A DNA stretch of 34,552 nt from Saprospiraceae bacterium (GTDB taxonomy: Bacteria > Bacteroidota > Bacteroidia > Chitinophagales > Saprospiraceae): the NCBI GenBank assembly GCA_020628725.1, contig JAHDEO010000001.1:1-34552 (forward strand). Direction: 5' to 3'. Under the pieces are notes generated by a model, which ran no database searches, was not told the DNA's origin, and worked only from the letters and a program-made list of their open reading frames with translations. Below, piece by piece: positions 20,653-34,552 of the stretch. A program made the position numbers and the translations under genes. Within the stretch, counting starts at the first letter, position 1; every line of letters begins with the position of its first letter.

Positions 20653-20657
20653 TAGGA

Positions 20658-21539
20658 TTAAAAAACAATATCTATCAACACTTTATCTCCCTCATTAAAT
20701 TTTTCATTCAACGACTTTCTGACCACTTGATTACCAATTAAAATTGCTACAAAACCCTGTATTTCATTGACTTCTATCACACGACCAATTAGCTTTTCAT
20801 TGCCTTCAGCAAATACCTCAAGTGGCGTACCCGTGTGCGTAATTTTTCCATTTTTCAATACAAAAACCCGATTTGCCAACCGAAAAATTTCCCCAATATC
20901 ATGACTAACAAGAATAATAGTTGGATGATATTTTTTGTGAAATGCTAATAAAAAATCTTGCAAATCATGGCGTGTATCTGAATCAAGCGCCGAAAGGGGT
21001 TCATCCAAAAGCAATACATTCGCCTCTTGTGCCAATGTCCGTGCCAATGCCACTCGTTGCTGCTGTCCGCCCGAAAGTTTGGTTGGATATTGATGCTGCA
21101 AATCGCCTAATTGTATCGCCTCAACCAACTCATCAATCAGCTTTTTATCGGTGTTTTTTGTTTGGGCAAATTCCAAATTAGCACGTACCGTCATATTCGG
21201 AAACAGCGCGTAATCTTGAAACATTAGCCCTACATCGCGTTTTTGCGGCGCAAAATTAATTTTTTTGGACGAATCAAACCACGTTTCATCGCTAATTTGA
21301 ATGTAACCACTATCGGGCTGCATCAAGCCTGCCAACATTCTTAATGTTGAGGTTTTGCCTACTCCTGATGTACCATATAATGCAATAATTTCTCCTGTTT
21401 GGATTTCCATTTGCACATCCAACAACATTTCACCGCCTGCACCATGTAGTTTTTTTTGTAGGTTAGTAGTGATTCGTGATTGGTGATTCGTGATTGGTTT
21501 GGCGTCCTGTTTTGCGATATTTTTATTTGAATTTTTCAC
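20658..21539 (-). CDS. modC: Molybdate-type ABC transporter ATP-binding protein
   Basis: ABC ATPase of 293 residues following modA and modB. Walker A is GTSGVGKT (56-63), the signature LSGGQQQR (155-162), Walker B LLLDEP (176-181) and the switch histidine His213. MFQDYALFPNMTVRANLEFA is typical of ModC. A short TOBE-like C-terminal segment (about 235-293) could bind the oxyanion. There is no ATG before the first beta strand, so the start used is GTG at 21537-21539. Residues ~14-26 (KPITNHQSRITTN) are encoded by the TNGTGAY heptamer repeat. Ordinary ModC proteins would begin near Arg22, so the native start has apparently been overwritten. The substrate may be molybdate, tungstate or conceivably sulfate. 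Confidence 0.9.
   Translation of the reverse strand: MKNSNKNIAKQDAKPITNHQSRITTNLQKKLHGAGGEMLLDVQMEIQTGEIIALYGTSGVGKTSTLRMLAGLMQPDSGYIQISDETWFDSSKKINFAPQKRDVGLMFQDYALFPNMTVRANLEFAQTKNTDKKLIDELVEAIQLGDLQHQYPTKLSGGQQQRVALARTLAQEANVLLLDEPLSALDSDTRHDLQDFLLAFHKKYHPTIILVSHDIGEIFRLANRVFVLKNGKITHTGTPLEVFAEGNEKLIGRVIEVNEIQGFVAILIGNQVVRKSLNEKFNEGDKVLIDIVF
21467..21497. repeat. TNGTGAY heptamer repeat, copy 2, inside the modC frame
   Basis: Four exact 7-bp units (TAGTGAT TCGTGAT TGGTGAT TCGTGAT) and a partial fifth lie in the first 30 codons of modC. Because 7 is not a multiple of 3 the units are read in rotating frames, and all stay open on the minus strand. It is the same family as the array at 11581-11612. 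Confidence 0.93.
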
Positions 21540-21547
21540 AAAAAAAC

Positions 21548-21613
21548 ACGTAAAACGATTTTACAAATCGTTACTCGAAATAGGGCAGGACGATTTATAA
21601 AATCGTTTTACGT
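21548..21613. repeat. REP-like inverted pair spanning the modB stop codon
   Basis: Two 24-bp arms (21548-21571 and 21590-21613) are inverted copies with a single mismatch. Each has an internal dyad of the type ACGATTT-TAN-AAATCGT. This is a different sequence family from the GTAGCACGG elements. The right arm encodes the last five codons of modB (RKTIL) and its TAA stop, and the left arm ends 8 nt before the modC GTG. Confidence 0.92.
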
Positions 21614-22254
21614 CGCATCCCGTAAACTATCAATAAAATCGCAAAAGTCACTACGAATAAAAACAATGAATAAGCATTTGCCAAGCCATAATTCATCGCC
21701 TCCACTTCATCGTAAATAGCAATGGACGCCACGCGTGTTTTATCCGGAATATTGCCGCCAATCATCAATACCACACCAAATTCTCCTATCGTATGCGCGA
21801 AAGCGAGGACAACACCCGTCAATAAAGCGGGTTTGATATTGGGCAAAAGGATGCGTATCAAAGTCTCGCGGTGCGATTTGCCAAGTGTATAAGCTGCTTC
21901 TCGAAATGAAGTTGGCAGATTGCTCAAGCCCGCCTGTATCGGTTGCACCATAAAAGGCAAACTATAAATAACAGATGCCAAGACCAAGCCCCCAAACGAA
22001 AACACCAAACGCAGTCCGAGCACCTCATCCAACCAACGCCCCAAACCATTCGACGGGCTAAAAACTATCAACAGATAAAAGCCCAAAACCGTAGGCGGCA
22101 ATACAAGAGGCATACTCACAAGCGTCTCGACCACAGGTTTGATACGAGATTTGGTGAATGCCAACCAATTCGCCAACGGAATCGAAATGACAAACAAAAT
22201 CAGCGTTGTGATGAACGCCAATTTGAAGGTGAGTATAATCGGAGACCATTCCAT
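21595..22254 (-). CDS. modB: Molybdate-type ABC transporter permease
   Basis: Inner-membrane permease of 219 residues with about five to six hydrophobic segments. It carries the conserved cytoplasmic coupling loop around AAYTLGKSHRETLIRILLPNIKPALLTGVVLAFAHTIGEFG (EAA motif, about residues 139-177). MPLVLPPTVLGFYLL (about 48-62) is typical of ModB. It lies between modA and modC as in known mod operons. The ATG (22252-22254) directly abuts a REP element, leaving little ordinary leader, so translation may depend on coupling or on structure of the repeat. Its last codons, YGMRRKTIL and stop, run into another REP arm. Sulfate permeases are related, so the ion is inferred from ModA similarity. Confidence 0.92.
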   Translation of the reverse strand: MEWSPIILTFKLAFITTLILFVISIPLANWLAFTKSRIKPVVETLVSMPLVLPPTVLGFYLLIVFSPSNGLGRWLDEVLGLRLVFSFGGLVLASVIYSLPFMVQPIQAGLSNLPTSFREAAYTLGKSHRETLIRILLPNIKPALLTGVVLAFAHTIGEFGVVLMIGGNIPDKTRVASIAIYDEVEAMNYGLANAYSLFLFVVTFAILLIVYGMRRKTIL

Positions 22255-22255
22255 T

Positions 22256-22328
22256 GTAGCACGGTGCTTCCAGCCCGTGTTTGCATATATTTTGCCCTAC
22301 GTGGCACGGGCTGGAAGCACCGTGCTAC
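22256..22328. repeat. REP-like perfect inverted pair between modA and modB
   Basis: Two 24-bp arms (22256-22279 and 22305-22328) are perfect inverted copies, beginning GTAGCACGG and ending CCGTGCTAC, with a 25-bp AT-rich spacer. The left arm is identical to that of 12863-12943. The element starts 1 nt from the modB start codon, and its right arm supplies the modA stop codon (TAG, 22325-22327). The transcript would form a strong hairpin inside the operon. Confidence 0.95.
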
Positions 22329-23098
22329 GGAGTCGTGTAGCCGTATTTTTGTAATATTTCTTTTGCTTTTTGAGAAAATAAGAATTCGTAAAAACGAATG
22401 GCTTCAGCGTGAGTATCTTTTCGATTAATCAAGGCTGCACCTTGTGCGATAGGTGCGTGATTGTTCGCTTCGATTTCAGTCCAGACGCCTTGGTTTTTCA
22501 TCTTTGGAGATAACACCACCGACATTGCTGTAAAACCCGCGTCTGCCGTACCCAAATAGATAAATTGATTGACTTGTGATATGCTTTCTCCGTAAACCAA
22601 TTTATTTTTTACCTCATCGTAAACACCCTGTTTTTGAAGTGTTTCAACGGCAGCCATACCGTAAGGAGCAGTTTTAGGATTGGCGATGGCGACATATTCT
22701 ACATCCTGATTTTGAAGGCTTTGTATATTTAAGTTTGTATTCTCCCTTCTACTCCACAAGACCAATTTCCCGTATGCATATATACGTGGAGGCGCGAGAG
22801 TTTTGCTTTTGGCGTGCAGCGATTCGGGGTATTTCATATCTGCTGAAATGAGTAAGTCATAAGGTGCACCTTCGCTTATTTGTGCCGTCAATTTACCGGA
22901 AGAGCTAACGATAATATCGCATTCAATACCTGTTTGATTGGTGAAAGTATCCACCAATTCATTGATGGCAAATTGAGCATTGGCGGCTGTGGCGATGGTT
23001 ATTTTTTGTGATGTATTATTTTCGCAAGAAAGAAAATAAACCACGAAGGAGACTAAAAGCACGAAGATGAATTTTGAATTTTGAATAATGTAGCGCAT
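22325..23098 (-). CDS. modA: Molybdate-type ABC transporter substrate-binding lipoprotein
   Basis: Periplasmic binding protein of 257 residues. The signal sequence FIFVLLVSFVVYFLSCENN ends in a lipobox with Cys25, so it should be membrane-anchored. ITIATAANAQFAINELVDTF begins the mature fold. IIVSSSGKLTAQISEGAPYDLLISADMKYP is the diagnostic ModA stretch with serine residues that bind the anion. ANPKTAPYG and ADAGFTAMSVV follow as expected. It is the first gene of modABC. The C-terminus ends KYGYTTP at a TAG lying in the REP element. Molybdenum enzymes are not in the window, so the role may be housekeeping, although two sulfotransferases are nearby. Confidence 0.93.
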   Translation of the reverse strand: MRYIIQNSKFIFVLLVSFVVYFLSCENNTSQKITIATAANAQFAINELVDTFTNQTGIECDIIVSSSGKLTAQISEGAPYDLLISADMKYPESLHAKSKTLAPPRIYAYGKLVLWSRRENTNLNIQSLQNQDVEYVAIANPKTAPYGMAAVETLQKQGVYDEVKNKLVYGESISQVNQFIYLGTADAGFTAMSVVLSPKMKNQGVWTEIEANNHAPIAQGAALINRKDTHAEAIRFYEFLFSQKAKEILQKYGYTTP

Positions 23099-23155
23099 GA
23101 TTTTTTTTATGAAAAATAATTATCGACACTTTATTCAAAATTTACTCATCCAAAA

Positions 23156-23695
23156 TTAGTCCCGAACATACGTTTTTGCCATTTTCACCAATTCTTCATA
23201 CACATTCGCAGGCAGGCTTTTTTTCGGAATGTAAATATCTTCTTCAGTCGTTTGGCGTTTGAATAGGAGATAGTCTTTGTTGTCGGCGAAACGGGTGAAG
23301 TCGCTCCATTTTGTAGGGTGTGTGCCGAGTTTGTTGTACACGGTCATGCCGTTTTCGTCGAAGCTGATTTCGTAATCGCCTCCGGCTTCTACTGCATCGA
23401 GGTAGTCTTTGATTTGTTGGTTGAGTTGCTTGGTGGAGCTTTTGATTTGCTGATTGAGCAAGAGGATAAATCCAATAATTGCCAAACATAACAAAGCTAC
23501 TACAATCAAAATCATTTTCACTCTCAAAAAATAAAATGCCGCACCGCCACCGATAATCACTAATTGCAAAGCTAAAAACAGCCACTTGATAAAGCCTTGA
23601 AACTGCCTGACTTCGCGGGCTTCATTGGTTTGAAGAACCTCGCGGAGGATACGCTCAAAATCGGAACGGGAGTAGTTGAGTTGGTATTTTTGCAC
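23156..23695 (-). CDS. YcxB-like membrane protein
   Basis: Protein of 179 residues. Two adjacent membrane segments (about 38-58 and 60-85) separate a short N-terminal part (MQKYQLNYSRSDFERIL) from a C-terminal cytosolic domain. YEISFDENGMTVYNKLGTHPTKWSDFTRFADNKDYLLFKR is the pattern of the YcxB-like family. Its function is unknown even in better-studied relatives. The start is GTG (23693-23695); upstream the frame is open but has no ATG and consists of ACGAATC-type words. It is placed between lipoprotein genes and modA with 50-70 bp gaps, and has no evident link to glycan synthesis. Confidence 0.85.
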   Translation of the reverse strand: MQKYQLNYSRSDFERILREVLQTNEAREVRQFQGFIKWLFLALQLVIIGGGAAFYFLRVKMILIVVALLCLAIIGFILLLNQQIKSSTKQLNQQIKDYLDAVEAGGDYEISFDENGMTVYNKLGTHPTKWSDFTRFADNKDYLLFKRQTTEEDIYIPKKSLPANVYEELVKMAKTYVRD

Positions 23696-23770
23696 TATTG
23701 TCGAGATTCGTGTACTTGTGATTCGTTTTATCGATTATTTTTGAATCAAATCACTGTATAATGAAGGGTT

Positions 23771-24406
23771 TTACGGAAACTGGTGAGTTTTGTTCTCCAT
23801 AGATTGCCTTTCCCCATAATCAAATCCTATCTCCTTACAAAGCTCAATGATATTTTGCTTGCCTTGTTCGCTGAAGCCAAATAATGGTTCTTCATATTCT
23901 GTTCCTTCATCAATTTTATGATATGTTTGAGCAGGGATTTTTACAGACGAGATAAGTTGATTACAATCTAAGCAAATATTAACGACACATTTTATTTCAT
24001 CATCTTGGTAAAAAACAATCCCCAAATGAGGCTCAAAACAAGCTGCCCAATTTCCACCGTAGGTATCATTACTACCCAGAAAATTTGTCAAAAAATCTAC
24101 TTGCTTTTGATTCAGTGATTTTTGACAGAAAATATTGGATGCAAATTTTTTTCGCCCATCAACTTCAGTAACAACACCATACGATTCTACAAGTCTCTCA
24201 AAGTCATAAGCGACGACCTTATTGTATATTAACGTATCAAAAGGTGAATTGGATACAGTATTTCGCTCAATTAATTGGGCTTTTTCTGCATATTTGTTGA
24301 GTGTTCTTTGGGATAAATATTTGTCTTTCGGCTGATTATCGCAGGAATTTAAAATCCAACATAAAACAATAAACAGTAGAAGAGTATTTCTTTTGAGTCG
24401 TTTCAT
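23771..24406 (-). CDS. Lipoprotein of unknown function
   Basis: Protein of 211 residues from the ATG at 24404-24406. The N-terminus MKRLKRNTLLLFIVLCWILNSC is a basic, hydrophobic signal with a lipobox, so the mature protein starts at Cys22 (SCDNQPKD). The central part contains NDTYGGNWAACFEPHLGIVFYQDDEIKCVVNICLDCNQLISS. This style of segment, with an aromatic strand and a C-x-x-C pair (CLDC), is common in small uncharacterised Bacteroidota lipoproteins. A TTG four codons upstream is less likely as start. It lies 9 nt from the stop of the lipoprotein gene before it, so the two are probably co-expressed. No function is proposed. Confidence 0.8.
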   Translation of the reverse strand: MKRLKRNTLLLFIVLCWILNSCDNQPKDKYLSQRTLNKYAEKAQLIERNTVSNSPFDTLIYNKVVAYDFERLVESYGVVTEVDGRKKFASNIFCQKSLNQKQVDFLTNFLGSNDTYGGNWAACFEPHLGIVFYQDDEIKCVVNICLDCNQLISSVKIPAQTYHKIDEGTEYEEPLFGFSEQGKQNIIELCKEIGFDYGERQSMENKTHQFP

Positions 24407-24427
24407 TTTCAGATGCAAATTTTATAT

Positions 24428-25231
24428 TTAGTTCAACACTTCACTCAATGTCAAATCCTGATTCAAATCAATATCAACAACCCGCACATGTTCAAACATC
24501 TCCTCTTGATTTATGTAATCAGGTTTAAGGCAAGTAATCCATATTTTAGGGGCATCGTGTTTTCTAAATTCTTCTACTATCGGTTTTAAGTCTTTTAGTG
24601 AAATATCTTTATCGACTATAAATTTAAATGAGAGGAAACGCTGTTCTTGTTCACGTAAACGCGACCTCTCTTTAGCCAACCAATCTCCAATGTGTTTCTT
24701 TTCTGCCAGTTTTCCTCCAAGTTCCAATAAGATTTCCTCATCTTCATAGAAGTAATCAAATTCAGGCTTTAGCTTTCCCAAGATAACAGGCTCTTTATAC
24801 CTATCGTTTTCAAACTCCACAATACGCAAGCTATCGCGCATTTTTTGCACTTGAGGAAATTGAATATCAAACTTGAGGTTGATTTTGAAATCTTCAATTG
24901 GCGTACAGCATTTGTCGCCACATTTTTCACCTCGCCAATTACCATATTCATTGTACAAATAAATGCTCTTCCCCGTGATGCTGTACTTGAACTGCATGGA
25001 GCCACAATCTCCGGGAAATGCTAAAACTCTATCCCTCGCATCGTAATAACCTTCATTTTTGCCATATAATGGATCGCTATAATAAGCAACGGAATCTTCC
25101 CCAACATCCATTAAATAAATGGTTTTAAAACGGTCGTTTTCCCGATAGATATGCCAATGTCCTGTTGCTTTTTGTGAAGAATCGCAAGCTATTAGAGTCA
25201 GAAAAGGAAACGCTAAAAGGATATTTTTCAT
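24428..25231 (-). CDS. Lipoprotein of unknown function with possible ExbD-like C-terminal domain
   Basis: Protein of 267 residues with a lipoprotein signal (MKNILLAFPFLTLIACDSS, Cys16). Residues ~20-115 form a beta-rich domain (GHWHIYRENDRFKTIYLMDV) with a cysteine cluster CGDKCCTP. The middle is charged and helical. The last ~70 residues, FKFIVDKDISLKDLKPIVEEFRKHDAPKIWITC, resemble in pattern the periplasmic domain of ExbD/TolR (strand, D-x-x-V/I-x-x-x-x-L/I, helix, strand). That similarity is my pattern judgement and needs a profile search. It is the first gene of the accessory patch after the ABC permease gene. Start at ATG. It may come from a different biological context than the glycan genes. 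Confidence 0.75.
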   Translation of the reverse strand: MKNILLAFPFLTLIACDSSQKATGHWHIYRENDRFKTIYLMDVGEDSVAYYSDPLYGKNEGYYDARDRVLAFPGDCGSMQFKYSITGKSIYLYNEYGNWRGEKCGDKCCTPIEDFKINLKFDIQFPQVQKMRDSLRIVEFENDRYKEPVILGKLKPEFDYFYEDEEILLELGGKLAEKKHIGDWLAKERSRLREQEQRFLSFKFIVDKDISLKDLKPIVEEFRKHDAPKIWITCLKPDYINQEEMFEHVRVVDIDLNQDLTLSEVLN

Positions 25232-25280
25232 GGTATGTTTTTTTTGAATTAGATGTTTTTTCGCTTTGTTTTGGTGTTTT

Positions 25281-26096
25281 CTACAAAATATCTGCCATCA
25301 CCCGTTCCACCTTATTAAAGTAGAAAATCCCCGTAATCAACAACACCGTAATCAACACAAATGAAATGTAAGCATACTGACTCGGCGGGTCGCCTCCCAC
25401 GAGGCACCAACGCATACCTTCTACCACACCTGCCATTGGGTTAAGGTGATAAAGCAATTGATATTTTTCGGGCACAGCACTCGACGGATAAGCTATCGGC
25501 GTGACGAACATACCCAAGCGCAAAAGCATAGGCGTGATATGTTGAAAATCGCGGTAACGTATCGTCAATGCGCTCATCCAAATACCACCCGCCAAGCCCG
25601 ACACCAATGCCATCAAGATGAAGAACGGACTATAAACGATATTCGCACTCGGCGGAAAACGCATAATCAACATGATAATAGCCAAACAAACGAGTACAAC
25701 ACCAAAATTGATAAGTGCGGTAATGGCTTTGGAAAGCGGAATGACCAATCGCGGAAAATAGATTTTCTTAATCATATTTTGCGAACTAATAATCGACCCA
25801 CCTGCCGAACCAAGAACCGTCTGAAAATAAGTCCATCCACACATACCCGCGATGGTATAAATCAAATGCGGTACTTCTCCCGTATCTACTTGTGCGACTG
25901 TTCCAAATACAAAATTCAGGATAATCAGCGTAAACAAGGGGTTGAGGAATACCCATAAAAAGCCGATAACCGTTTGTGCGTATTTGACTCGTAAATCGCG
26001 GTAGGTCAGCGTCCATAACAATTCGCGGTATTCTAAAACTTCCCGAAAATTGAGCCGAAAGGCACTGCGCTTTTTTTCTATAATTGTCTCTTTCAT
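25281..26096 (-). CDS. ABC-2 type polysaccharide export permease (Wzm-like)
   Basis: Inner-membrane permease of 271 residues with about six hydrophobic segments. The N-terminus FREVLEYRELLWTLTYRDLRVKYAQTVIGFLWVFLNPLFTLIIL is the hallmark of Wzm/KpsM/TagG permeases, including the RDLRVKYAQ...GFLW motif. YHLNPMAGVVEGMRWCLVG (about 220-238) is the family's C-terminal signature. Such permeases work only with an ATPase (Wzt/TagH). None follows here: the next gene downstream is a lipoprotein gene and the only ABC ATPase in the window is ModC. The partner is probably outside the window. Start at ATG, immediately preceded by AC/CA-rich repeats. Confidence 0.93.
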   Translation of the reverse strand: MKETIIEKKRSAFRLNFREVLEYRELLWTLTYRDLRVKYAQTVIGFLWVFLNPLFTLIILNFVFGTVAQVDTGEVPHLIYTIAGMCGWTYFQTVLGSAGGSIISSQNMIKKIYFPRLVIPLSKAITALINFGVVLVCLAIIMLIMRFPPSANIVYSPFFILMALVSGLAGGIWMSALTIRYRDFQHITPMLLRLGMFVTPIAYPSSAVPEKYQLLYHLNPMAGVVEGMRWCLVGGDPPSQYAYISFVLITVLLITGIFYFNKVERVMADIL

Positions 26097-26130
26097 TGTG
26101 TTGTGGTGTTGGGGTGTCGTAGTATTGTGG
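26097..26130. repeat. AC/CA-rich period-7 words before the ABC permease
   Basis: On the minus strand the gap reads as ACACCCC, AACACCA, CAACACA in 7-bp steps directly up to the ATG. It is similar in composition and position to 8325-8366. Confidence 0.5.
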
Positions 26131-27108
26131 TTAAAGATATTGTTTATACACTTCCTCTAAGTCGTGGCGACGAACGAATTCAAGATTATTATGTTTTTGT
26201 TGGATGCGTTTTTTGAAACCCGGCATGAAGCGAAAACCTACGAGAGCTTTCATTTTTTGTTTGAATGGCACGGGTTCTTGCATCATTTTATCCAGTGCTT
26301 TACGGAGTTCTTTTTTGTTATCTGTCAAAAGGGCAAAGTCGGCGATGCGTCGCCAAAAGGCAAAACTGTCCTTGCTTTGATAATCGGCGGGTGGTTTTTG
26401 GGGCCAATCGACGAGTTGTTCGGGTGCGTATTTTTTACGGATATTGATACTATCTAAAAAAGGTTTATACCCCTGAGACATAGAAGCAGGTTTAAGTCGG
26501 TAAATGAATGGAACTTCATTCGATTCAAAGCATTTTCCCACTTTCAACATACGTATCCAAAGCGGAATATCTCCTATCGTAAATTCATCATCATAACCGC
26601 CGGCTTCGATGGCTGCTTCACGATTAAACATGACTGTAGGGTCACCAAAATATTTGCGGATAGATTTATTTTGAGTATTGAAATGTTCAATTTTGAGTTG
26701 GCGGTCGGGCTTTCCCGGTTTGCGTTCGATGATGCTGCCGAAGGGCGTGAGATACGCACAATGCGTTCCAATCATAATCGCTCCCTCTGTATTTTCCAAG
26801 AAATTAACTTGCCATTCGAGACGGTGGCGCATCATAATATCGTCGGCATCCATGCGAGCGATGTATTTCGACGTAGCGTTTTCCAATCCCCATGTCAATG
26901 CGCCTTGAAAGCCGGTTTTTCCCAATGAAAATACTTTGACTTTCTTACCTTCAAATTGCTTCGCAATTTCAACTGTTCGGTCTGTGCTACCATTTTCCAA
27001 TACCCACAATACATAATTATCATAGGTTTGGTCGAGGCACGAGCGAATGGCATCGGCGAGGGTGTCTTCCGCATTGTGCGCAGGGAGGATTATGGTGACG
27101 ATTGGCAT
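26131..27108 (-). CDS. Family 2 glycosyltransferase
   Basis: Soluble GT-A transferase of about 325 residues. It begins MPIVTIILPAHNAEDTLADAIRSC, the GT2 first strand. It has LENGSTDRTVEIA, then the donor/metal motif MDADD (residues ~82-86 from this start). GDIPLWIRML further on is the usual acceptor-side acidic motif region. This family often adds galactose, rhamnose or N-acetylated sugars in O-antigen synthesis; the substrate is unknown. The ATG at 27106-27108 is preferred. The frame is open 17 further codons to 27159, which would overlap the end of the deacetylase gene. It is probably co-transcribed with that gene and the ABC permease gene. Confidence 0.92.
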   Translation of the reverse strand: MPIVTIILPAHNAEDTLADAIRSCLDQTYDNYVLWVLENGSTDRTVEIAKQFEGKKVKVFSLGKTGFQGALTWGLENATSKYIARMDADDIMMRHRLEWQVNFLENTEGAIMIGTHCAYLTPFGSIIERKPGKPDRQLKIEHFNTQNKSIRKYFGDPTVMFNREAAIEAGGYDDEFTIGDIPLWIRMLKVGKCFESNEVPFIYRLKPASMSQGYKPFLDSINIRKKYAPEQLVDWPQKPPADYQSKDSFAFWRRIADFALLTDNKKELRKALDKMMQEPVPFKQKMKALVGFRFMPGFKKRIQQKHNNLEFVRRHDLEEVYKQYL

Positions 27109-27145
27109 TTTAAATTTAAATTTCGTACAGACAAGAATGTCTGTG

Positions 27146-28117
27146 TTACGCTTCGGCAAACCATTTATTTACGGGTGCATCAACGGCTTTAGGGACATCA
27201 TTCGTATCGAGACGCGGAAGTTCGTATTTGTGGAAGGATGTGGTGTCTGCAATTTTTACATCAATCGTGATGGCAAGTTTACAATCCATCTCTGCGAGAA
27301 TATTCATCGTGTCTTCATTGTGTCCGCCGTGTGGGTAACACATTGTCCAATTGTCCATATTTACGCCTATTTTTTTGAGAAAATTTTGCGCCTTAGTGAT
27401 GTCGATACGTTGTTGTTCGGCAGGAAGGGTATTGAGCCAGTAATGGTCGTAAGTATGATTACCAATGTGCATTCCCGCTGATTGCATACAGCGTATTTGT
27501 TCGGGACTCATGTATAATTCACGACTAAATATTTCCTGTGGAATACCAACGACTTCTTCAAAGAATTTATCTGCCAAAATACCACGCAATTTAGCAGGTA
27601 ATGCTTTTTGTAATAATCGTTTGAATAGAATTACTTGCGGCGTATCCTTTGGGTGTTTGGTCATCCATTTTTTGATATAATAATCATTGGATTCTAATTG
27701 ATATTCGTCGCGGTAGTAGTCTATATCTTTGAAAATTTTCTCTAATAAAACCTCTATATCCGTAGCAGCCGCGAGTATGAAATGAATTTTATTGACATCC
27801 AAAACAATATGCTCCGCAATCGCTTTGCACGGCACATAAAACGAGCCTTGCAAACCGCGATTGTACAGAATTGGCAGCACATAATTGAAGTGGTCGGTAT
27901 AGGCATCGTCGAAGGTGAGCAGGGCTGCTTTCGGCGGTAATTTATCACCCGTTTCAATGGAATGTATCAACTCCTCCATCCGAATGGGGTGATAGTTTTT
28001 CTGCAAATACGCCACCTGTTCTTCAAACAATCGGACATCCAAACCCTTAATGGCAGTATAACGCGAGTGTTGTAAATCACGGACGTAGTGATAGGCGATT
28101 ATCGTTACTTTATTCAT
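27146..28117 (-). CDS. Polysaccharide deacetylase (NodB/carbohydrate esterase 4-like)
   Basis: Protein of 323 residues without a signal peptide. The metal-dependent deacetylase motif TFDDAYTDH (68-76) contains the two catalytic/metal aspartates, and HTYDH (221-225) supplies the two metal histidines. A large insertion (about 100-205) separates the two. Related proteins in capsule and O-antigen loci remove N- or O-acetyl groups from sugar residues. The lack of a signal suggests a cytosolic substrate such as a lipid-linked sugar, or an unrecognised export route. With the GNAT gene upstream it could set the acylation pattern of an amino sugar (inference). Start at ATG. Confidence 0.9.
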   Translation of the reverse strand: MNKVTIIAYHYVRDLQHSRYTAIKGLDVRLFEEQVAYLQKNYHPIRMEELIHSIETGDKLPPKAALLTFDDAYTDHFNYVLPILYNRGLQGSFYVPCKAIAEHIVLDVNKIHFILAAATDIEVLLEKIFKDIDYYRDEYQLESNDYYIKKWMTKHPKDTPQVILFKRLLQKALPAKLRGILADKFFEEVVGIPQEIFSRELYMSPEQIRCMQSAGMHIGNHTYDHYWLNTLPAEQQRIDITKAQNFLKKIGVNMDNWTMCYPHGGHNEDTMNILAEMDCKLAITIDVKIADTTSFHKYELPRLDTNDVPKAVDAPVNKWFAEA

Positions 28118-28149
28118 TTTGTGAATGGGTAAATTGAGAGATTTAGGGA

Positions 28150-28572
28150 TTATTTTGGTGGGTGCAATCCGGCGTTCTTGAGCAATTGACGGAGGTTGAG
28201 TAAGCCTTCGCGGTTCATGTTTAATGCTTGGATGCTTAGTTTGCCTTTCAGTGTGATGCCAATGATGTGTAGGCTGTCGTCACTCCATTTGAAGTGGTCA
28301 TTCCAGTTGTCTTTTCTTGGGTGAAAAAGGGGGATTTTTTCTCCGGTGGCGGGGTCGATGGCGGTGGTTTTGGCGGATTTAAATTCATTGCAACCTGTAC
28401 AAGCATAAGCTAAGTTTGCAAGTGTATTGTTACCGCCTTTGATGAGTGGGATAATGTGTTCAAGATGAAAAGTAGAGGGACTGTGCGAGTTGGGCAAAAG
28501 GCAATATTCACAACGATAATCTGCTCTTTCCTTTATGGTTCGGCGAGTTTTTACTGAGATATATTTACGCAT
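28150..28572 (-). CDS. HNH endonuclease
   Basis: Small nuclease-type protein of 140 residues. A zinc-binding CEYC pair (Cys21/Cys24) is followed by HLEHIIPLIKGGNNTLANLAYACTGCN. This gives the HNH core (His36, Glu38-His39, Asn53) and the second zinc pair Cys58/Cys61 followed by Asn62. All catalytic positions of the small HNH family are present. The remainder (about 70-140) is a basic/hydrophobic domain of unknown role. The ATG at 28570-28572 lies within the 3' end of the preceding gene, an 8-nt ATGCGTAA overlap that implies translational coupling. It is out of place in a glycan locus. A host-defence, toxin-like or mobile-element role is possible but not shown. Confidence 0.88.
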   Translation of the reverse strand: MRKYISVKTRRTIKERADYRCEYCLLPNSHSPSTFHLEHIIPLIKGGNNTLANLAYACTGCNEFKSAKTTAIDPATGEKIPLFHPRKDNWNDHFKWSDDSLHIIGITLKGKLSIQALNMNREGLLNLRQLLKNAGLHPPK

Positions 28573-28969
28573 AAATATCAGGCTTGGGGCGAATATCAAA
28601 GTATTTCATCAACTCATCTAAGGTAGTGTTCCACATTTTTGAAAGTTGGATTAAATTACCTAAGCGCACCACTGCAAATGCTTCTGTTTTCTCAACCAAT
28701 TTGCTTAATTCGTTATGTTCCTCTTCTGTCAAGCCTTCATAATTGAGTTTTTCTCCTAAAAAAAATTGGCGTTCATACACTTCGTCAGGTATGCCGTTTA
28801 ATGTCTCATCTATTAATTCTAATTCTTCAATCGTAAACACCCTATCAGTGTGAGTTTCCTGAATCTCTTTGAATCGTTTGAATTGAGCATGAGTATGATT
28901 TAAAATTGCCTCATAATCCGTCGAATCTACCAATTTATGTATTGCCGCTTTAGTCGTCTCAATATTCAT
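28565..28969 (-). CDS. Small acidic helical protein coupled to the HNH endonuclease
   Basis: Protein of 134 residues that I do not recognise as a named family. It is predominantly helical and acidic, with charged stretches FTIEELELIDETLNGI and YEGLTEEEHNELSKLVEKTEA. These are followed by a C-terminal segment AVVRLGNLIQLSKMWNTTLDELMKYFDI that could form a helix pair. No signal peptide or membrane segment is seen. Its stop codon overlaps the HNH start by 8 nt, so the two are made together. Small acidic partners next to HNH nucleases recur in bacterial genomes, and an inhibitor or targeting partner is a reasonable guess, no more. A candidate TAnnTTTG promoter lies about 20 nt upstream. Confidence 0.8.
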   Translation of the reverse strand: MNIETTKAAIHKLVDSTDYEAILNHTHAQFKRFKEIQETHTDRVFTIEELELIDETLNGIPDEVYERQFFLGEKLNYEGLTEEEHNELSKLVEKTEAFAVVRLGNLIQLSKMWNTTLDELMKYFDIRPKPDIYA

Positions 28970-28989
28970 ATTAAGTTGTTTTCTTTTTC

Positions 28990-28997
28990 CAAAAATA
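28990..28997 (-). promoter_or_regulatory. Candidate Bacteroidota -7 box for the HNH pair
   Basis: The minus strand reads TATTTTTG, a match to the Bacteroidota -7 consensus TAnnTTTG, about 20 nt before the ATG of the small helical protein. No convincing -33 TTTG was found at the right distance, so this is tentative. It would allow the HNH pair to be expressed apart from the glycan genes. Confidence 0.35.
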
Positions 28998-29020
28998 CAA
29001 AAAAATACCTTGAAAATCCA

Positions 29021-30163
29021 CTAACGCAAGTCTTCCGGTATTTGCCACAAACGCCCCACACGGTCACGGTCACAATCCACTCGTGTGAAATAGGCATTAT
29101 CCAAATTCAAACGATGCACAGCCTCATGATGCGTTTTACTTTGAATGCAGGTAAATTCGTGATTATTACGCTTCTCAATCGGCGCAGTGACGAGGGGAAC
29201 AAGTGCACCGTCTTGTCGCTCCAATTTTGTGAAACTTGACTCGGCAAGTTGAGCATCATAAATGTTACCCATTTTCGCAAAATCTATGTAAATGTAACCT
29301 CGCGTATACGCCTCATGCGCCGCATAATGCAAGAGCATAGGGATATGTTTGGGTACACCATACATATCCACGATGCGGTGAATTTTATAATTTTGCGGAG
29401 CTAAATTTTCTTCTCTCAAGGCAGCAAATGCCTTTATTTTTCCTTGCGAAACATAGCCATACACATCATATTTTACAAAAGGATGTGCTACTAATCTCCG
29501 CTTTAACCAACGCATATCTCGATACGTCGTTCCCTTCAAATCTACGTACCAATCGGCTTGAAATTTGTCGATATTTTCAGGCGTAATTTGAATGATATTT
29601 GAATCGGAAATCGACGTGGTAGCCTTGACGGGAATGCGCTCATGCGCCATGCCTAAATCCTGACCGATGTGTTCGATGATTTCAAATGTTTTTTCATTCA
29701 AATTCAATACAAAACGCGGCATTGGGTCACCACCGAAGGGATTATAACCGTCATTCGCATAAAAATCGCGCGTACTTGGTTTCATGCCAATCGCCAAATT
29801 ACCTTCATTATTATTGTGAACGTAATCGACCATTGAGCCGCTAATCCCGCGCCGTCGCCAATCTTTGAGCGTATAAGCATTCGCATTTTGACTCATCGAA
29901 ACAATTTGCCCGAATAATTGCAATTTGTACGCCCGACAGCCGTAAAAAGCGACGACTTTTCCCGTTTCATTGCACTCCGCCAACAGACTTGTCGCCAAAT
30001 CAACTGGCATATAAGGACTCCCAAAGTAAAACTTCAGAAATTGCTCACTGATAAAAACGGATTGCTCGCCATAGGCTTCGCGAAAGAAAGCAGGCATATT
30101 CGGCACATCATCCAAGCGGACGTGGCGGACGGTGTAGGTATCGGTTTTTAAGATTAAGCTCAA
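29021..30163 (-). CDS. GNAT-family N-acyltransferase-like protein
   Basis: Protein of 380 residues with a GNAT-type first half. YTVRHVRLDDVPNMPAFFREAYG is strand/helix 1, and LKDWRRRGISGSMVDYVHNN (about 99-118) carries the R-R-x-G-I/x-G-x coenzyme-A loop. The second half repeats some of this layout (FVKYDVYGYVSQGKIKAFAALREE, about 230-253), suggesting a tandem GNAT-like fold. It may transfer an acetyl or other acyl group to an amino sugar of the glycan. There is no ATG before the fold: the start is TTG (30161-30163), inside a run of CTTAAA-like hexamers. The frame is open back to the stop codon of the preceding gene (30206-30208), with which it is exactly in frame. Confidence 0.85.
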   Translation of the reverse strand: MSLILKTDTYTVRHVRLDDVPNMPAFFREAYGEQSVFISEQFLKFYFGSPYMPVDLATSLLAECNETGKVVAFYGCRAYKLQLFGQIVSMSQNANAYTLKDWRRRGISGSMVDYVHNNNEGNLAIGMKPSTRDFYANDGYNPFGGDPMPRFVLNLNEKTFEIIEHIGQDLGMAHERIPVKATTSISDSNIIQITPENIDKFQADWYVDLKGTTYRDMRWLKRRLVAHPFVKYDVYGYVSQGKIKAFAALREENLAPQNYKIHRIVDMYGVPKHIPMLLHYAAHEAYTRGYIYIDFAKMGNIYDAQLAESSFTKLERQDGALVPLVTAPIEKRNNHEFTCIQSKTHHEAVHRLNLDNAYFTRVDCDRDRVGRLWQIPEDLR

Positions 30164-30186
30164 GTTTAAGTCTAAGTTTAAATTAA
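30150..30186. repeat. ACTTAA-like hexamer words across the GNAT start
   Basis: On the minus strand ACTTAG, ACTTAA, ACTTGA, GCTTAA, TCTTAA follow in 6-bp steps. The TTG used by the GNAT gene and its codons 2-5 (SLIL) are made of this repeat. Confidence 0.65.
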
Positions 30187-30200
30187 TGTAAATATGGAAC

Positions 30201-30235
30201 GCGGATTAGGCGGATTTAACGGATTGGCGCAGATT
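30201..30235. repeat. AATCCG word repeat spanning a stop codon
   Basis: On the minus strand AATCTG, AATCCG, AATCCG, AATCCG are spaced 10, 9 and 9 bp. The unit encodes the last ~9 residues (LRQSVKSA) and stop codon of the gene at 30206-31657. The words CAATCCGTT..ATCCG recur at about 32662-32677, before the first GT2 gene. Confidence 0.75.
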
Positions 30236-31657
30236 CTTTTGTGCCACCTTTTTATCTCCCAAAATTTCCAATAAAGCCTCGCACACACGTTCGGTAGCAC
30301 GTCCGTCATTTTCACCGGTTTCCATGTATCGGGCATGTTGTCGGGCTTCCCAGTTGGCTTTGGGATTTTCGATGTAATTTTTCAAATGTGCGGTTAATTC
30401 ATCAAAGCTGCGCGAGATAGACGCACCTTTAAATGAAAGGAATTTTTTCATGTGCGGAAAGTCCGTTACCCGCTTCGCGGAGAACCAATAATCGCGTTCT
30501 TCATGCGCGTCAAACGCAGTAATTACAGCAGGTGTATCGACCATAAATGAATCAATCGACACGGTAGAACCCGAATTGATGCAACACGCTGCACCGTATA
30601 ACATATTTGACAGACGTATCATATCGCTCTGTTTCATGCTCCATTGCAATTTGGAATCTACGAGTTGAGGATAATCAACTTTTACGCGGTCACTCACAAG
30701 GGCATCAAGGCGTCCGAGCCAAGTTTTATCTGCCATGCTGCCGACTACATTTTGTGGATGCGGGCGGGCTATGAGTTGCATATTTTCTCCGAAAATTCCG
30801 GCTTCTATTTGTCCTGCGAGATGTTCCACAATATCAATTTCACAGGGCGCAAAACGCGGTGAACTCATCGCAAAAAATAAGTAAGGTTTCGATGGATTCA
30901 AACCCAGTTTTTCAATAAAAGGCGCGATATTCGGGTCATTTTTTACTTGATGATGCAAATCAAAATGCGGTACGCCGCATTCGTAAATATCCGTTTTTTT
31001 AATCTTATAAAATTCTTGAAATTCGTTTGCCATCACAGGTCCCCAAGCGATGTATTTATCTGCCAATGCCGGAAAATGCCCCTTGCATGTGATGTTATCC
31101 CAACTCAATAAATGAATACAAGTTTGAATATTTAGTTGGCTCGCAGCATTCAGCAAAATCCCCTCTTGAAAACCTACCGGATAAGTTGCCACCACCAATC
31201 GCGGGTTAATTTCTTCGAGAAATTCACGCGCTTCAGGTATGTCCAAAAACTGTTGTTCATATTTTTTGAATCGCTGGCGAATGAAGGGAAAAACCTTATT
31301 CAAACGATACATCGCCATACCGAAATACGCCAATAGTCGCCGATTCAAATTAAATCTTTTTTCTACTCGATACTTTTCCCAAAGCGCAACGTTGTTTTTT
31401 ATATCTTCCAGAAAATATTTCCGCATCCGATTATAATTGGCGGAGCGTGGTTTGCTTTCTCGAAATTCGTGTAATGTAATTCCTTCACTTTCGCAGGCTA
31501 ATTTCAAATTCTCATCGTTGGCATCGGGTGTAATGAGTGCAACACTTTTGCCTTCGGCACGCAAACGTTTGAGCAAACCTGTTTGCAACACCATCCGAGC
31601 AGCAAAGCCGTGTGAAACAATGTAACAAATATCAATATTCGATGGTCGATTGTCCAT
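30206..31657 (-). CDS. GT-B-like glycan biosynthesis protein (CDP-glycerol transferase/surface carbohydrate type)
   Basis: Protein of 483 residues with a GT-B-like plan. It opens IDICYIVSHGFAARMVLQTGLLKRLRAEG and continues RLVVATYPVGFQEGILLNAA (about 153-172). The donor half shows KPYLFFAMSSPRFAP, QLIARPHPQN and INSGSTVSIDSFMVDTPAVITAFD (about 362-385). RPHP and the SGS...D pattern are shared by CDP-glycerol glycerophosphotransferases and related surface carbohydrate proteins, including UDP-GlcNAc 2-epimerase-fold enzymes. It may transfer a glycerol-phosphate or unusual sugar. The exact reaction is not known. Start at ATG. The last residues and stop codon fall in the AATCCG word repeat, so the native C-terminus may have been altered. 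Confidence 0.8.
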   Translation of the reverse strand: MDNRPSNIDICYIVSHGFAARMVLQTGLLKRLRAEGKSVALITPDANDENLKLACESEGITLHEFRESKPRSANYNRMRKYFLEDIKNNVALWEKYRVEKRFNLNRRLLAYFGMAMYRLNKVFPFIRQRFKKYEQQFLDIPEAREFLEEINPRLVVATYPVGFQEGILLNAASQLNIQTCIHLLSWDNITCKGHFPALADKYIAWGPVMANEFQEFYKIKKTDIYECGVPHFDLHHQVKNDPNIAPFIEKLGLNPSKPYLFFAMSSPRFAPCEIDIVEHLAGQIEAGIFGENMQLIARPHPQNVVGSMADKTWLGRLDALVSDRVKVDYPQLVDSKLQWSMKQSDMIRLSNMLYGAACCINSGSTVSIDSFMVDTPAVITAFDAHEERDYWFSAKRVTDFPHMKKFLSFKGASISRSFDELTAHLKNYIENPKANWEARQHARYMETGENDGRATERVCEALLEILGDKKVAQKNLRQSVKSA

Positions 31658-31677
31658 ATTCTGTAATGTAAGTGCCG

Positions 31678-32646
31678 TTAGGATGACGGTTTTCTTTCGA
31701 GAGCAAGTAACTTTTCGTCTATTTTTTCAAGTTGCTTATTAATTCGGGGGGTAAGCATTTTTCGTATGCCAAGCCTGCTTGTAAGACCAAATTTTCGATT
31801 GGTCAGCGCATGGCTTTTTTGAAGATAACGCAAGTATTCTTCGCCAAATACTGCCGACTCTTCTACTGCCATTCGTTGTAATTTTAGTCGAACTTGACTG
31901 CCTTTTGCTTGATTATTATTGAAAGTTTTGGTGTGGTCATCGTAGCGATAATTTCCAAAAACAGCATCTTCAAACGAAATGTAATCAGCTGATTTAAAAG
32001 CTTTTAACAAAAAACGATAATCCATTGAATAATGGTCATTTACATCGAAATCGCCAACTTCTTCTTGTATTTCCCGCGAATAAAAATAACCGACAGGATT
32101 ATTGGGCATCGCGTGTCTTCCGCCAAGTACGGCGAGGTGTGAGTAGCGATTGCATGGGGTTTTGACTTTGATTTCTGTGCCATCACTTTCGATGACGCGG
32201 GTCTTACCGAGTAGCATATTTTTACCCTTCGCCTTAGCGAAAAATTTTCCAACACGCGCCAACACCTCTTGTTCGTAGTAGTCGTCTGAATTGATAAAAG
32301 CAATAACTTCACCAGTTGCTTTGCGCCAGCCTTTATTCATGGCATCGCTTTGTCCGGCATCTTTTTCACTCACCCAGAAGTTAATCCATTTATCGTATTT
32401 TTTGAGGATGTCCACCGTTTCGTCCGTACTGCCACCATCCATGATGATGAGTTCGAGCGCAGGATAATTTTGCAGTAAAATAGAACGTATAGTTTCCTCA
32501 ATAAATCCCCCTTGATTGTAAGAGGGCATGATGATGGATATTTTTGGATAGACTTGTGTCTCGTAGGTGTCAGGTGACGTTTGAGAGTTGGCGCACCATG
32601 ATTTGATGTTGGGCTTGGGTGTAGGTAATTTTTCGAGTAAATTCAT
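31678..32646 (-). CDS. Family 2 glycosyltransferase
   Basis: GT-A transferase of 322 residues and first gene of the minus-strand block. KISIIMPSYNQGGFIEETIRSIL (about 31-53), IMDGGSTDETVDIL and AGQSDAMNKGWRKATGEVIAFINSDDYY (about 97-124) form a clear GT2 core with the DxD-equivalent NSDD. The motif SEKDAGQSDAMNKG is typical of the WcaA-like branch acting on glycan repeat units. A helical, basic C-terminus may associate with the membrane. Start at ATG. Upstream lies a 119-bp divergent intergenic region shared with the DUF4910 gene, where a promoter for the block is expected, although I could not identify a convincing one on the minus strand. Confidence 0.92.
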   Translation of the reverse strand: MNLLEKLPTPKPNIKSWCANSQTSPDTYETQVYPKISIIMPSYNQGGFIEETIRSILLQNYPALELIIMDGGSTDETVDILKKYDKWINFWVSEKDAGQSDAMNKGWRKATGEVIAFINSDDYYEQEVLARVGKFFAKAKGKNMLLGKTRVIESDGTEIKVKTPCNRYSHLAVLGGRHAMPNNPVGYFYSREIQEEVGDFDVNDHYSMDYRFLLKAFKSADYISFEDAVFGNYRYDDHTKTFNNNQAKGSQVRLKLQRMAVEESAVFGEEYLRYLQKSHALTNRKFGLTSRLGIRKMLTPRINKQLEKIDEKLLALERKPSS

Positions 32647-32658
32647 AGTGTAGTGGAT

Positions 32659-32732
32659 GTACGGATGAAACGGATTGGAGAGATTTCTATAGATTTATCA
32701 GTAAAAATCTTTAAAATCTGTACTATCCGTAC
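32659..32732. promoter_or_regulatory. Inverted repeat in the divergent intergenic region
   Basis: GTACGGAT (32659-32666) and ATCCGTAC (32725-32732) form an 8-bp perfect inverted repeat in the gap between the two divergent genes. Nested partial complements are AGATTT/AAATCT. It includes the AATCCG words seen at 30201-30235. It could be a regulatory site or simply another border repeat. Confidence 0.4.
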
Positions 32733-32753
32733 TCCTATTCTATTTTGATTTTT

Positions 32754-32761
32754 TACTTTTG
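32754..32761 (+). promoter_or_regulatory. Candidate -7 box for the DUF4910 gene
   Basis: TACTTTTG fits the Bacteroidota consensus TAnnTTTG and ends 4 nt before the ATG at 32766. Transcription would start at or near the start codon, implying a leaderless or very short-leader mRNA. A TTTG at 32744 is too close to be the -33 element, so support is weak. Confidence 0.3.
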
Positions 32762-32765
32762 GTAA

Positions 32766-34067
32766 ATGCAACAACAACTCGAACACTACTTTGACCGCCT
32801 ATGGTCACTCAATCGCAGCTTGACCGGCGAGGGCAACCGCGAATCGCTCCGTATTCTATCTGAATTGGTGGATTTGAAAGTACATGAAATACCAAGTGGA
32901 ACGACCTGTTTTGATTGGAACGTGCCGCCTGAATGGAACGCCCGTGAAGCATGGATTAAAGACCCAAACGGCAATATCGTGGTGGATTTTCGGGAAAATA
33001 ATTTGCATTTATTGGGATATTCCACGCCGATTCATGCAAAAATGTCGTTGGCGGAATTGAAGGAAAATATATACTCGCTGCCCGATAATCCTGATTGGAT
33101 TCCGTATCGCACGTCTTATTATAAGGAACGTTGGGGATTTTGCCTCACGCATAATCAATTGATGTCTTTGCCCGAAGGTGAATACGAAGTGTTTATTGAT
33201 TCAACCTTAGATAAAAACGGTTCAATGACGATTGCAGATGCCGTGATTGAGGGTGAAACAGATGAGGAAATTATGTTTTCGACCTATATCTGCCACCCTT
33301 CGATGGCGAATAATGAATTGAGTGGTCCGTTGGTGCAAGCTTTTCTTTATCAAGCGATTAAATCATTAGGAAAAACACGCTACACCTACCGTTTTACCTT
33401 TCTACCGGAGACGATTGGCGCGATTTATTACCTCTCACAACATGGCGAACATCTGAAAGAAAAACTCCGCGCCGGATATGTGTTGAATTGCATTGGCGAT
33501 GGCGGAAAATTCACTTACAAAAGAAGTCGCCAACTCACTTCACTCGCCGACCGTGCGGCTGAAACCGTCCTCGCGCAAACCAAAATCGGTTGCAATGCAG
33601 AAGATTTTTTCCCGCTTGGGAGTGATGAACGGCAGTATTGTTCACCGCATTTTGACCTGCCAATGGGGTCGGTGATGCGGACGCGATATTACATTTATCC
33701 CGAATATCATACATCAGCAGATAACAAAGATTTTATTTCCTTTGAAGCAATGGAAACTTCTGTTTTGCGCCTCTTGGATATTGTCAAATTATTGGAAGCC
33801 AACGCTTACTACATCAATCAAATGCCGCATTGCGAACCGCAACTCGGTAAGCGCGGACTCTATCCAAATCTTGGTTCAGACACCTCCACCCGCCTACGTG
33901 TAGCCGCGATGATGTGGACGCTGAATCTCGCCGATGGGAAGCATGATTTAATTGATATTATTAATCGAAGTGGTCAGTATTATTCGGAGATTTTAGAGGT
34001 CGTGAAGACGTTAAGTGAACACGGACTCATCACAAAAGCTGTGGGTTTAAACCCACAGCTTTTGTGA
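32766..34067 (+). CDS. DUF4910/DUF2172 aminopeptidase-like protein with C-terminal winged helix
   Basis: Protein of 433 residues of the M28-related DUF4910 family, which recurs in O-antigen and exopolysaccharide clusters. The N-terminus YFDRLWSLNRSLTGEGNRESLRIL (8-31) is the family hallmark. Likely zinc-site residues include His177 (ICHPSMANNELSG), Glu215 (LPETIG), Asp287 (GSDERQYCSP) and His315 (YPEYHTSADN). The last ~70 residues form a winged-helix-like domain (LIDIINRSGQYYSEILEVVKTLSEHGLI). Its substrate is unknown; hydrolysis or handling of an amide- or peptide-modified sugar is a guess. The only intact plus-strand gene here, divergent from the glycan block. The last 13 codons (LITKAVGLNPQLL) are written in a perfect 48-bp palindrome. 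Confidence 0.9.
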   Translation: MQQQLEHYFDRLWSLNRSLTGEGNRESLRILSELVDLKVHEIPSGTTCFDWNVPPEWNAREAWIKDPNGNIVVDFRENNLHLLGYSTPIHAKMSLAELKENIYSLPDNPDWIPYRTSYYKERWGFCLTHNQLMSLPEGEYEVFIDSTLDKNGSMTIADAVIEGETDEEIMFSTYICHPSMANNELSGPLVQAFLYQAIKSLGKTRYTYRFTFLPETIGAIYYLSQHGEHLKEKLRAGYVLNCIGDGGKFTYKRSRQLTSLADRAAETVLAQTKIGCNAEDFFPLGSDERQYCSPHFDLPMGSVMRTRYYIYPEYHTSADNKDFISFEAMETSVLRLLDIVKLLEANAYYINQMPHCEPQLGKRGLYPNLGSDTSTRLRVAAMMWTLNLADGKHDLIDIINRSGQYYSEILEVVKTLSEHGLITKAVGLNPQLL

Positions 34068-34072
34068 TGAGT
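34025..34072. repeat. Perfect 48-bp palindrome between convergent genes
   Basis: The 24 bases 34025-34048 are exactly complementary to 34049-34072 with no loop (centre GGGTTT-AAACCC). The palindrome contains the last 14 codons and the TGA of the DUF4910 gene and touches the first base of the opposing gene's stop codon (34072-34074). It could act as a bidirectional terminator, although no U-run follows, or be a REP-like insertion. Confidence 0.95.
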
Positions 34073-34552
34073 TAGTCGGCAGCTAAAGCAGCCGCTACGA
34101 ATTTTGAAAATTCCTTTGCCGTTTGCGGTGTCAAATGCGAACAGTCCGCATAAATTTCTTCCGAATTATTCGCGTATTTTTTTTGATAATTTAAATATTG
34201 CGTAAAATTAATTTCGGAAAAAACACTATCAATTTCAGGTGAATTTTCTAAGGCTTGCAATTCCCCGCAAATCGGCATCACCAAACCGTAAACTTCCGAA
34301 CCATTTGCCCGAAAATGTTGTGCCTGTGCCTCCATATCACGCGCATATACATGTGCGAGTGAGTCCAAGTCAAATTTATCAACTTGTTTATTAAACCATT
34401 CTAATTGAAATTGCTGACGCGCTGCATAATCTCCACGTTCTTTAACAATTACACCACCTTTTTTATCATAATTATGATGTAAGAAAAACGGCGGATTGCC
34501 TGCGCGATATTCGTCAATAGATTTTTTTTCGTACAAAAAAGAATATTGCTTA
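34072..34552 (-). CDS. SGNH/GDSL-hydrolase-like protein, 3' part only
   Basis: The frame is open to the right window edge, so this is the C-terminal ~160 residues of a longer gene; a TTG at 34534-34536 is just an internal codon. The end contains NNSEEIYADCSHLTPQTAKEFSKFVAAAL, the D-x-x-H catalytic block of SGNH hydrolases as seen in DltD-like and acyltransferase-associated esterases. Upstream parts (FLHHNYDKKGGV, DMEAQAQHFRANGSEVYGLVMPICGEL) fit the variable region between the serine block and D-x-x-H. In a glycan locus it may move or remove O-acetyl groups. The terminal AAALAAD is encoded by a REP-like imperfect palindrome. Identification rests mostly on one motif. Confidence 0.65.
   Translation of the reverse strand, partial: KQYSFLYEKKSIDEYRAGNPPFFLHHNYDKKGGVIVKERGDYAARQQFQLEWFNKQVDKFDLDSLAHVYARDMEAQAQHFRANGSEVYGLVMPICGELQALENSPEIDSVFSEINFTQYLNYQKKYANNSEEIYADCSHLTPQTAKEFSKFVAAALAAD
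34075..34098. repeat. REP-like imperfect palindrome in the SGNH gene 3' end
   Basis: A 24-bp stretch starting GTCGGCAGCT and ending CAGCCGCTAC is an imperfect palindrome. Its minus strand begins GTAGCGGC, like the GTAGC ends of the other REP-type elements. It encodes the last eight residues of the SGNH-like protein and lies directly beside the 48-bp palindrome. Confidence 0.55.

Follow-up and report, generated by a model that had tools for sequence, protein, structure and literature searches.

The DNA analysed here (the window, 34,552 nucleotides from a Saprospiraceae bacterium) ends in a pair of convergent genes, and the 48-bp perfect palindrome that they share belongs to a dispersed family in which the two arms vary in a paired fashion, copies lie in frame within protein genes, and, at one locus, two copies bracket a transposase gene. 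The palindrome is absent from the corresponding locus in three relatives. That it belongs to a repeat family is well supported. It is probable that the palindrome is a short non-autonomous element of REP/RPE-like kind that has spread through this genus of the Saprospiraceae, most likely as single-stranded hairpin DNA moved by a Y1 (HUH) transposase of the IS200/IS605 type. Insertions would have been mostly near gene ends, with those inside genes tolerated owing to the open frames of the element. At the window locus, landing at the tail of the DUF4910 gene would have given the protein 12 new C-terminal residues and the gene its stop codon, and the two convergent genes would now both end in a strong hairpin formed by the copy.

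Structure of the palindrome

The palindrome, ACTCATCACAAAAGCTGTGGGTTT|AAACCCACAGCTTTTGTGATGAGT (34025–34072, no strand assigned), has arms of 24 nt each (34025–34048 and 34049–34072), which in the repeat scan are 100% complementary with a 0 nt spacer; it is therefore as real, perfect, and free of a loop as the preliminary description had it. Among the eight inverted repeats listed in the window (arms of at least 14 nt, copies no more than 60 nt apart, 9-nt seeds), it is the sole zero-loop case. By simple arithmetic, the chance expectation for a perfect zero-loop arm of 24 nt in 34.5 kb is about 1e-10. The 40-bp core common to the family, ATCACAAAAGC-TGT-GGGTTT|AAACCC-ACA-GCTTTTGTGAT, occupies 34029–34068 (no strand assigned) and is extended by mirrored ACTC/GAGT ends; its inner bases, TGT/ACA, are variable yet paired. 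The GC stem is flanked by A4/T4. Folded as RNA, the palindrome stretches give one long hairpin per strand, at −42.5 and −49.8 kcal/mol (z −10.0 and −9.3). An Rfam search of the whole window returned nothing at the gathering threshold. Palindromes of 48 bp are shorter than the length at which palindromes turn unstable in Escherichia coli.

The DUF4910 locus and its convergent neighbour

The gene on the forward strand (32766–34067) encodes a protein of 433 aa with Pfam matches to DUF4910, DUF2172, and HTH_47, which ends in EHGL-ITKAVGLNPQLL. Translation and comparison with relatives place its last 12 sense codons (ATC...TTG, encoding ITKAVGLNPQLL) and the stop TGA (34065–34067) within the element, at 34029–34067 of the forward strand. 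The copy supplies the stop because it is read in its second frame, which has TGA at the end of the core. On the reverse strand, the 3′ part of the opposing gene, without a Pfam match, occupies 34072–34551, and its stop codon at 34072–34074 (TTA on the forward strand) includes the last base of the palindrome. The earlier statement that the palindrome is common to two convergent genes therefore holds: the DUF4910 ORF ends within it and base 34072 belongs to the opposing stop. Just past the end of the window at 34552, the opposing ORF meets unreadable codons (XXXX; L001), probably a run of N.

The relatives found through the DUF4910 gene are uncultured Saprospiraceae MAGs. Their homologues are 95–96% (G005), 82% (G001), and 81% (G003) identical, and the palindrome is absent from the DUF4910 locus of all three relatives compared. 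Translated from the relatives' DNA, the C-termini read EHGLLVKM*, EHGLLMVNG*, and EHGLLKEL*. The alignments break off at residue 422–424, one to three codons into the element core, which starts at codon 422; the C-terminal region in the relatives is too diverged to fix the insertion point. A homologue of the opposing gene, 40–47% identical, is convergent with the DUF4910 gene in each of the three, and for G001, G003, and G005 the gap between the aligned parts of the pair is 16 nt, 140 nt, and about 1.76 kb, respectively. The copy was therefore either gained in this lineage or lost in all three relatives, and we infer a gain rather than three losses.

A second dyad, at 34075–34098 on the reverse strand, had been described as REP-like. 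It is only a 7-bp imperfect stem that encodes VAAALAAD, with no demonstrated membership of a repeat family. Across 241 loci, its 16-nt core was found only here and once in G005. The opposing protein ends in FSKFVAAALAAD and its homologues in FSKTIANELV, FSKMLANNLS, and FSKIIAREL; since these C-termini align, the dyad consists of normally placed C-terminal codons and is, judged from sequence, most likely ordinary coding sequence. The G005 recurrence lies about 230 nt past the DUF4910 gene (L057 4502–4517 / L068 1271–1286) and stands apart from the homologue of the opposing gene.

A dispersed family of palindromes

A search for further copies, which had been proposed with the preliminary description, found many in the palindrome's own genome (G000; 7.24 Mb in 683 contigs). 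With up to three mismatches, the 22-mer GCTGTGGGTTTAAACCCACAGC matches 20 sites in G000 (reversed control, 0), and the half-element ATCACAAAAGCNNNGGGTTTAAACCC has 82 forward and 85 reverse matches (control, 0), which include half-sites of a longer element and of which the copies analysed here are a part. The family core is ATCACAAAAGC-nnn-GGGTTT|AAACCC-nnn-GCTTTTGTGAT, in which nnn and the site-specific outer bases stay paired. At least 37 distinct copies in G000 are centred on GGGTTTAAACCC, and 28 have perfect arms of at least 20 nt (two of these 28 being fold-back contigs). Fold-back contigs aside, the longest perfect copy is 76 bp. The family is present in four of the five other genomes of the genus and absent from G001 at the same mismatch threshold. 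Other species have their own consensus, such as TTCGCAAAAGCGGTGGGTTT in G003. The exact full-core pattern had no matches in viral contigs. No earlier report of this palindrome family was found among the literature matches listed, for which the motif itself was not a search term.

For further analysis, 73 copies were used, each a distinct 60-nt sequence centred on G(G/A)GTTTAAAC(C/T)C in which 14 or more of 20 positions pair; identical sequences were counted once, and two fold-back contigs were included. The G000 copies left out are L087 (right arm 3 nt shorter, with low pairing), L038 (at a contig start), and L088 and L089 (altered centre).

Position relative to genes

According to a crude, longest-first ORF caller, which counts the window copy at its ORF end as within an ORF, 29 of the 73 copies lie within ORFs, 16 between convergent genes, 21 between co-directional genes, and 1 between divergent genes, with a neighbour missing for 6. 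Many of the other copies within ORFs are close to the ORF start and may be extragenic. Thirteen of the 73 have at least 100 open codons on both sides, although in one of these (L041) a signal-peptide-like start then follows, and this copy may also be extragenic.

It is unlikely that the palindrome is instead a bidirectional terminator for the two convergent genes, with its perfection selected through the RNA hairpin and the sequence similarity between sites secondary. The hairpin is very stable on both strands, with A4/T4 around its GC stem; of the 38 distinct intergenic copies that have a called gene on either side, 16 lie between convergent genes (14 if the two fold-back contigs are left out) and a single one between divergent genes; and relatives often have a different hairpin at the same intergenic place. 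However, it is the sequence that is conserved and not structure alone, and the 13 copies deep in open frames are in positions where termination would cut expression. In addition, only four T follow the GC stem, and a scan of 20000–34552 for intrinsic terminators (GC stem, short loop, at least five T in the next eight) did not include this site. Any effect of the window hairpin on transcript ends is putative.

The copies inside genes favour the reading of the palindrome as a mobile element. In the core, the first frame has no stop, the second has TGA at the end, and the third has TAA at the centre, and the other strand is likewise. The element can therefore be tolerated inside genes, because on each strand one reading frame contains no stop and another reaches the last codons before meeting one. 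For 7 of the 13 deep in-frame copies comparison was made with homologues, and each is at an indel or variable loop. In an FAD-binding protein (L071), the copy encodes HHKSGGFKPSTFVI, with a net gain of 10 residues (30 nt) over the 75%-identical G005 homologue. In the BatA-like protein of G000, IISKAAGLNPQLLR is encoded near residue 329. Four relatives differ from this sequence or are shorter at that point, and G000 has gained 4 codons (12 nt) over G004 and G005 and 14 codons over G003 and G001. The net gains of 30 nt (FAD) and 12 nt (BatA) are smaller than a full element of at least 40 nt, therefore replacement or later loss was involved. The G003 BatA homologue has its own family copy in another loop, at about residue 144, where G000 and G004 have a CCCCTAAAGGGG-type repeat and G001 a TCCCCCTCTAGAGGGGGA palindrome.

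In two membrane proteins (L081 and L082) the copies lie in variable loops, and the G002 homologue of L082 also has a copy. The copy in an HldD epimerase (L090) falls at a gap relative to the solved HldD chains 4ej0 and 1eq2, as does a second, apparently decayed copy, HHKSIGSKPDAFD, in the same protein. The first copy in a non-ribosomal peptide synthetase (NRPS; L129) is at a gap relative to the adenylation domain of linear gramicidin synthase. In L145, one of the other six deep in-frame copies, Pfam matches flank the copy on both sides.

An AlphaFold model of the FAD-binding protein, in which the element occupies a low-confidence turn between strands 134–140 and 152–157, was rejected as evidence owing to its poor mean pLDDT of 53.6. 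Another in-frame repeat type (CCCCTAAAGGGG; peptides like SPLGAGG and SPFGGG) was seen in loops of the same proteins (L171, L172, L181, and L189), and one such protein loop in G001 (L175) contains the TCCCCCTCTAGAGGGGGA palindrome.

Pairing between the arms

Counted outwards from the centre, positions 7, 8, and 9 pair in 31, 30, and 30 of 32 G000 copies (91 of 96 in total), against 31%, 42%, and 38% expected if the arms were independent; the half-element pattern reached neither the right nnn nor anything beyond it, and collection of the copies required 14 of 20 pairs. Pairing also extends outwards. Four or more further pairs beyond the 20-nt core were found in 12 of 31 copies in G000 (null 1.3%), 16 of 17 in G003 (18%), and 7 of 14 in G005 (1.1%), where the null is given by mispaired flanks from other copies and 69 of the 73 copies were used, leaving out fold-backs and contig ends. 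Of 28 G003 copies in loci selected by position, 15 are part of a larger repeat that has 19-bp inverted ends. Four of these 15 are among the 17 outer-arm copies and do not count as independent; when they are removed, at least four mirrored outer bases are still seen in 12 of the remaining 13.

Two copies can be followed between species, with flanks 75–90% identical. In one (L086/L103), ATCAT/ATGAT corresponds to ATCAC/GTGAT, a paired change. In the other (L080/L109), ATCAC/GTGAT corresponds to ATCGC/GCGAT, with one additional unpaired change in L109. Since these copies stay palindromic, or nearly so, through paired changes, perfection is no proof of youth. The suggestion that the window palindrome is young is partly supported, by its absence from the matching locus in three relatives.

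Template-switch mutation that perfects inverted repeats is described in PMC7202029 and PMC3820800. Such quasipalindrome correction, acting on an ordinary imperfect hairpin, could have made the mirrored arms with no transposition at this site, and both the paired changes between species and the excess of outer pairs in G000 and G005 are as this would predict. It does not account, however, for a 40-bp core shared by dozens of unrelated sites and found inside unrelated genes, and is very unlikely to be the origin of the window copy, being a second process at most. Two G000 contigs are mirrored around a palindrome copy over the whole flank examined (C652, L084, 1986 nt; C455, L074, 1976 nt) and are true assembly fold-backs, and several contigs start in or next to a copy. 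For the window copy, however, a fold-back artefact is so improbable that it can be dismissed: each arm stops at 24 nt and continues into a different gene, the homologues of these two genes are convergent in G001, G003, and G005, and the family is found in four other assemblies too. On this evidence, readings of the window copy as a terminator only, a product of template switching only, or a fold-back were rejected.

The 138-bp repeat and corresponding sites in relatives

A 138-bp repeat with ATTGATTTT ends, which contains two hairpins resembling the 40-bp family, was recognised 23 times in the G000 loci examined. Both ends are present in 13, to which the flank analysis was confined, the other 10 being dropped. 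In three of the 13 (L006, L245, and L248), the repeat has one half of the palindrome on either side, the break falling precisely at TTT|AAA. With offsets of no more than 2 nt per side tolerated, 11 of the 13 have flanks mirrored over 6 nt or more, against 15 of 156 mispaired controls, a control count that is inflated by several sites with a common GGCGACT flank. The 138-bp element is also present at the apex of unrelated inverted repeats.

Other palindromes occupy some of the corresponding sites. At one intergenic site (L075), G000 has a family copy, and G002, G004, and G005 have a GATGTCNGACAT...ATGTCNGACATC palindrome; at another (L029), G002 has a CGTAGGGGCAGGGCATGCCCTGCCCCTACG palindrome. 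Comparison of the flanks of 12 of 19 loci with five relatives gave no clean empty site from which an insertion length or target duplication could be measured: where alignment was possible, the site contained a different hairpin, a longer stretch of unrelated sequence, or a copy in common, and the others had diverged. No insertion boundary was therefore obtained from the alignable sites. A check for target-site duplication of the MITE kind found copy flanks that are mirrored, not directly repeated, and no exact empty site.

From sequence comparison, the placement of the 138-bp repeat and the different palindromes at the sites in relatives suggest insertion at hairpin apices. The mirrored outer arms of the 40-bp family may reflect apex insertion into an existing inverted repeat, template switching, or both. 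A wider proposal is that HUH (IS200-type) enzymes move hairpins into the apices of inverted repeats already in place, each round lengthening the perfect palindrome and its site-specific mirrored arms, with hairpins at gene ends serving as landing pads and in-frame copies becoming new protein loops. This would fit the insertions of the 138-bp repeat at the exact centre and the over-representation of mirrored outer arms among copies of the 40-bp element; such a nesting system is tentative, and less likely than not.

Candidate Y1 transposase

A search for Y1 (HUH) transposases in four genomes gave 15 matches, nine in G000, four in G003, two in G005, and none in G001. One G005 gene (contig C162) is bracketed by two perfect family copies with arms of 35 and 38 nt, one centred 91 nt upstream of the presumed ATG and the other 85 nt downstream of the stop. 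Its protein scores 65.7 bits with the NCBIfam IS200/IS605 model (cut-off 55) and 22.7 with the RAYT model (cut-off 80). No family copy was found in the surrounding DNA examined for the other 14 matches (0 of 9 in G000 and 0 of 4 in G003), where three of the G000 matches (C369, C208, and C161) are less than 200 nt from a contig start and have one side out of view. G000 and G003 are palindrome-rich although none of their Y1 genes is bracketed. The bracketed gene points to a Y1 enzyme as the putative mover of the palindrome.

The contig of the window also carries an IS200/IS605-type Y1 gene (C48:38009–38353; L235), which lies about 3.5 kb past the end of the window; a GTAGAGACGCGATT/AATCGCGTCTCTAC palindrome is located about 1.2 kb away from this gene. 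In L238, CCAATGGGTTTAAACCCATTGG, a shorter palindrome that is centred on TTTAAA and is not the family core, occurs twice (centres 1686 and 3159); one of the two copies lies within a long ORF, in the part that matches a Y1 transposase.

Comparison with known repeats

The Rickettsia palindromic elements (RPEs) are palindromic repeats of 105–146 bp (PMC2229807) that are described as lying between genes and in frame in unrelated protein genes (passages in PMC2229807 and PMC10969869). The Saprospiraceae copies share this distribution; unlike RPEs, the core is 40 bp and the longest perfect copy 76 bp, and the host belongs to the Bacteroidota and not the Rickettsiales, so that the likeness is one of description. 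The palindromic repeats of Wolbachia are cited beside RPEs as a near system.

The GTAG/CGTC REPs, according to PMC3733652, are palindromes of 20–40 bp that occur for the most part where neighbouring genes are convergent or co-directional, and close to the 3′ ends of genes; some lie inside ORFs, and some provide a stop codon. The Saprospiraceae palindrome resembles them, as described there, in size, placement, intragenic copies, and the supply of a stop, and differs in its full, zero-loop symmetry. There is no GTAG/CGTC tag beside the hairpin in the window copy; the tetramer occurs on either strand in 4 of the 73 cores, inside the stem, through the variable bases. The bracketed transposase is also unlike that of GTAG REPs, being IS200/IS605 by score and below the RAYT cut-off.

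PMC3733652 also describes TIRYT elements, tyrosine transposases flanked by TIRs, some of them self-complementary. One locus here (G005 C162) is similar in arrangement, in that the repeats on either side of its Y1 gene are self-complementary and are also dispersed without such a gene, although the section on TIRYT elements does not mention mirrored site-specific arms. Insertion sequences that target REPs are described in PMC1525189. Like these, the second element enters the palindrome specifically; unlike them, the 138-bp repeat is too short for a transposase and sits exactly at the apex, TTT|AAA. The Saprospiraceae palindrome works like RPEs and TIRYT repeats and lacks the RPE size, the REP tag, and the RAYT features.

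In the texts consulted, protein-coding palindromes are described above all for Rickettsia, in passages that give no established mover. A family in the Bacteroidota, in a 7.2-Mb genome, with one bracketed transposase and copies in loops of well-known enzymes, would make both the mover and the effect of the added peptide testable. It is also a warning that, in such MAGs, the 3′ end of a gene or a loop of a protein may derive from an element. Elsewhere in the window, at 1961–2032, 12862–12944, and 22256–22328, there are three pairs of inverted repeats in which GTAGCACGG stands at the start or close to it; we take them to resemble paired GTAG-type REPs.
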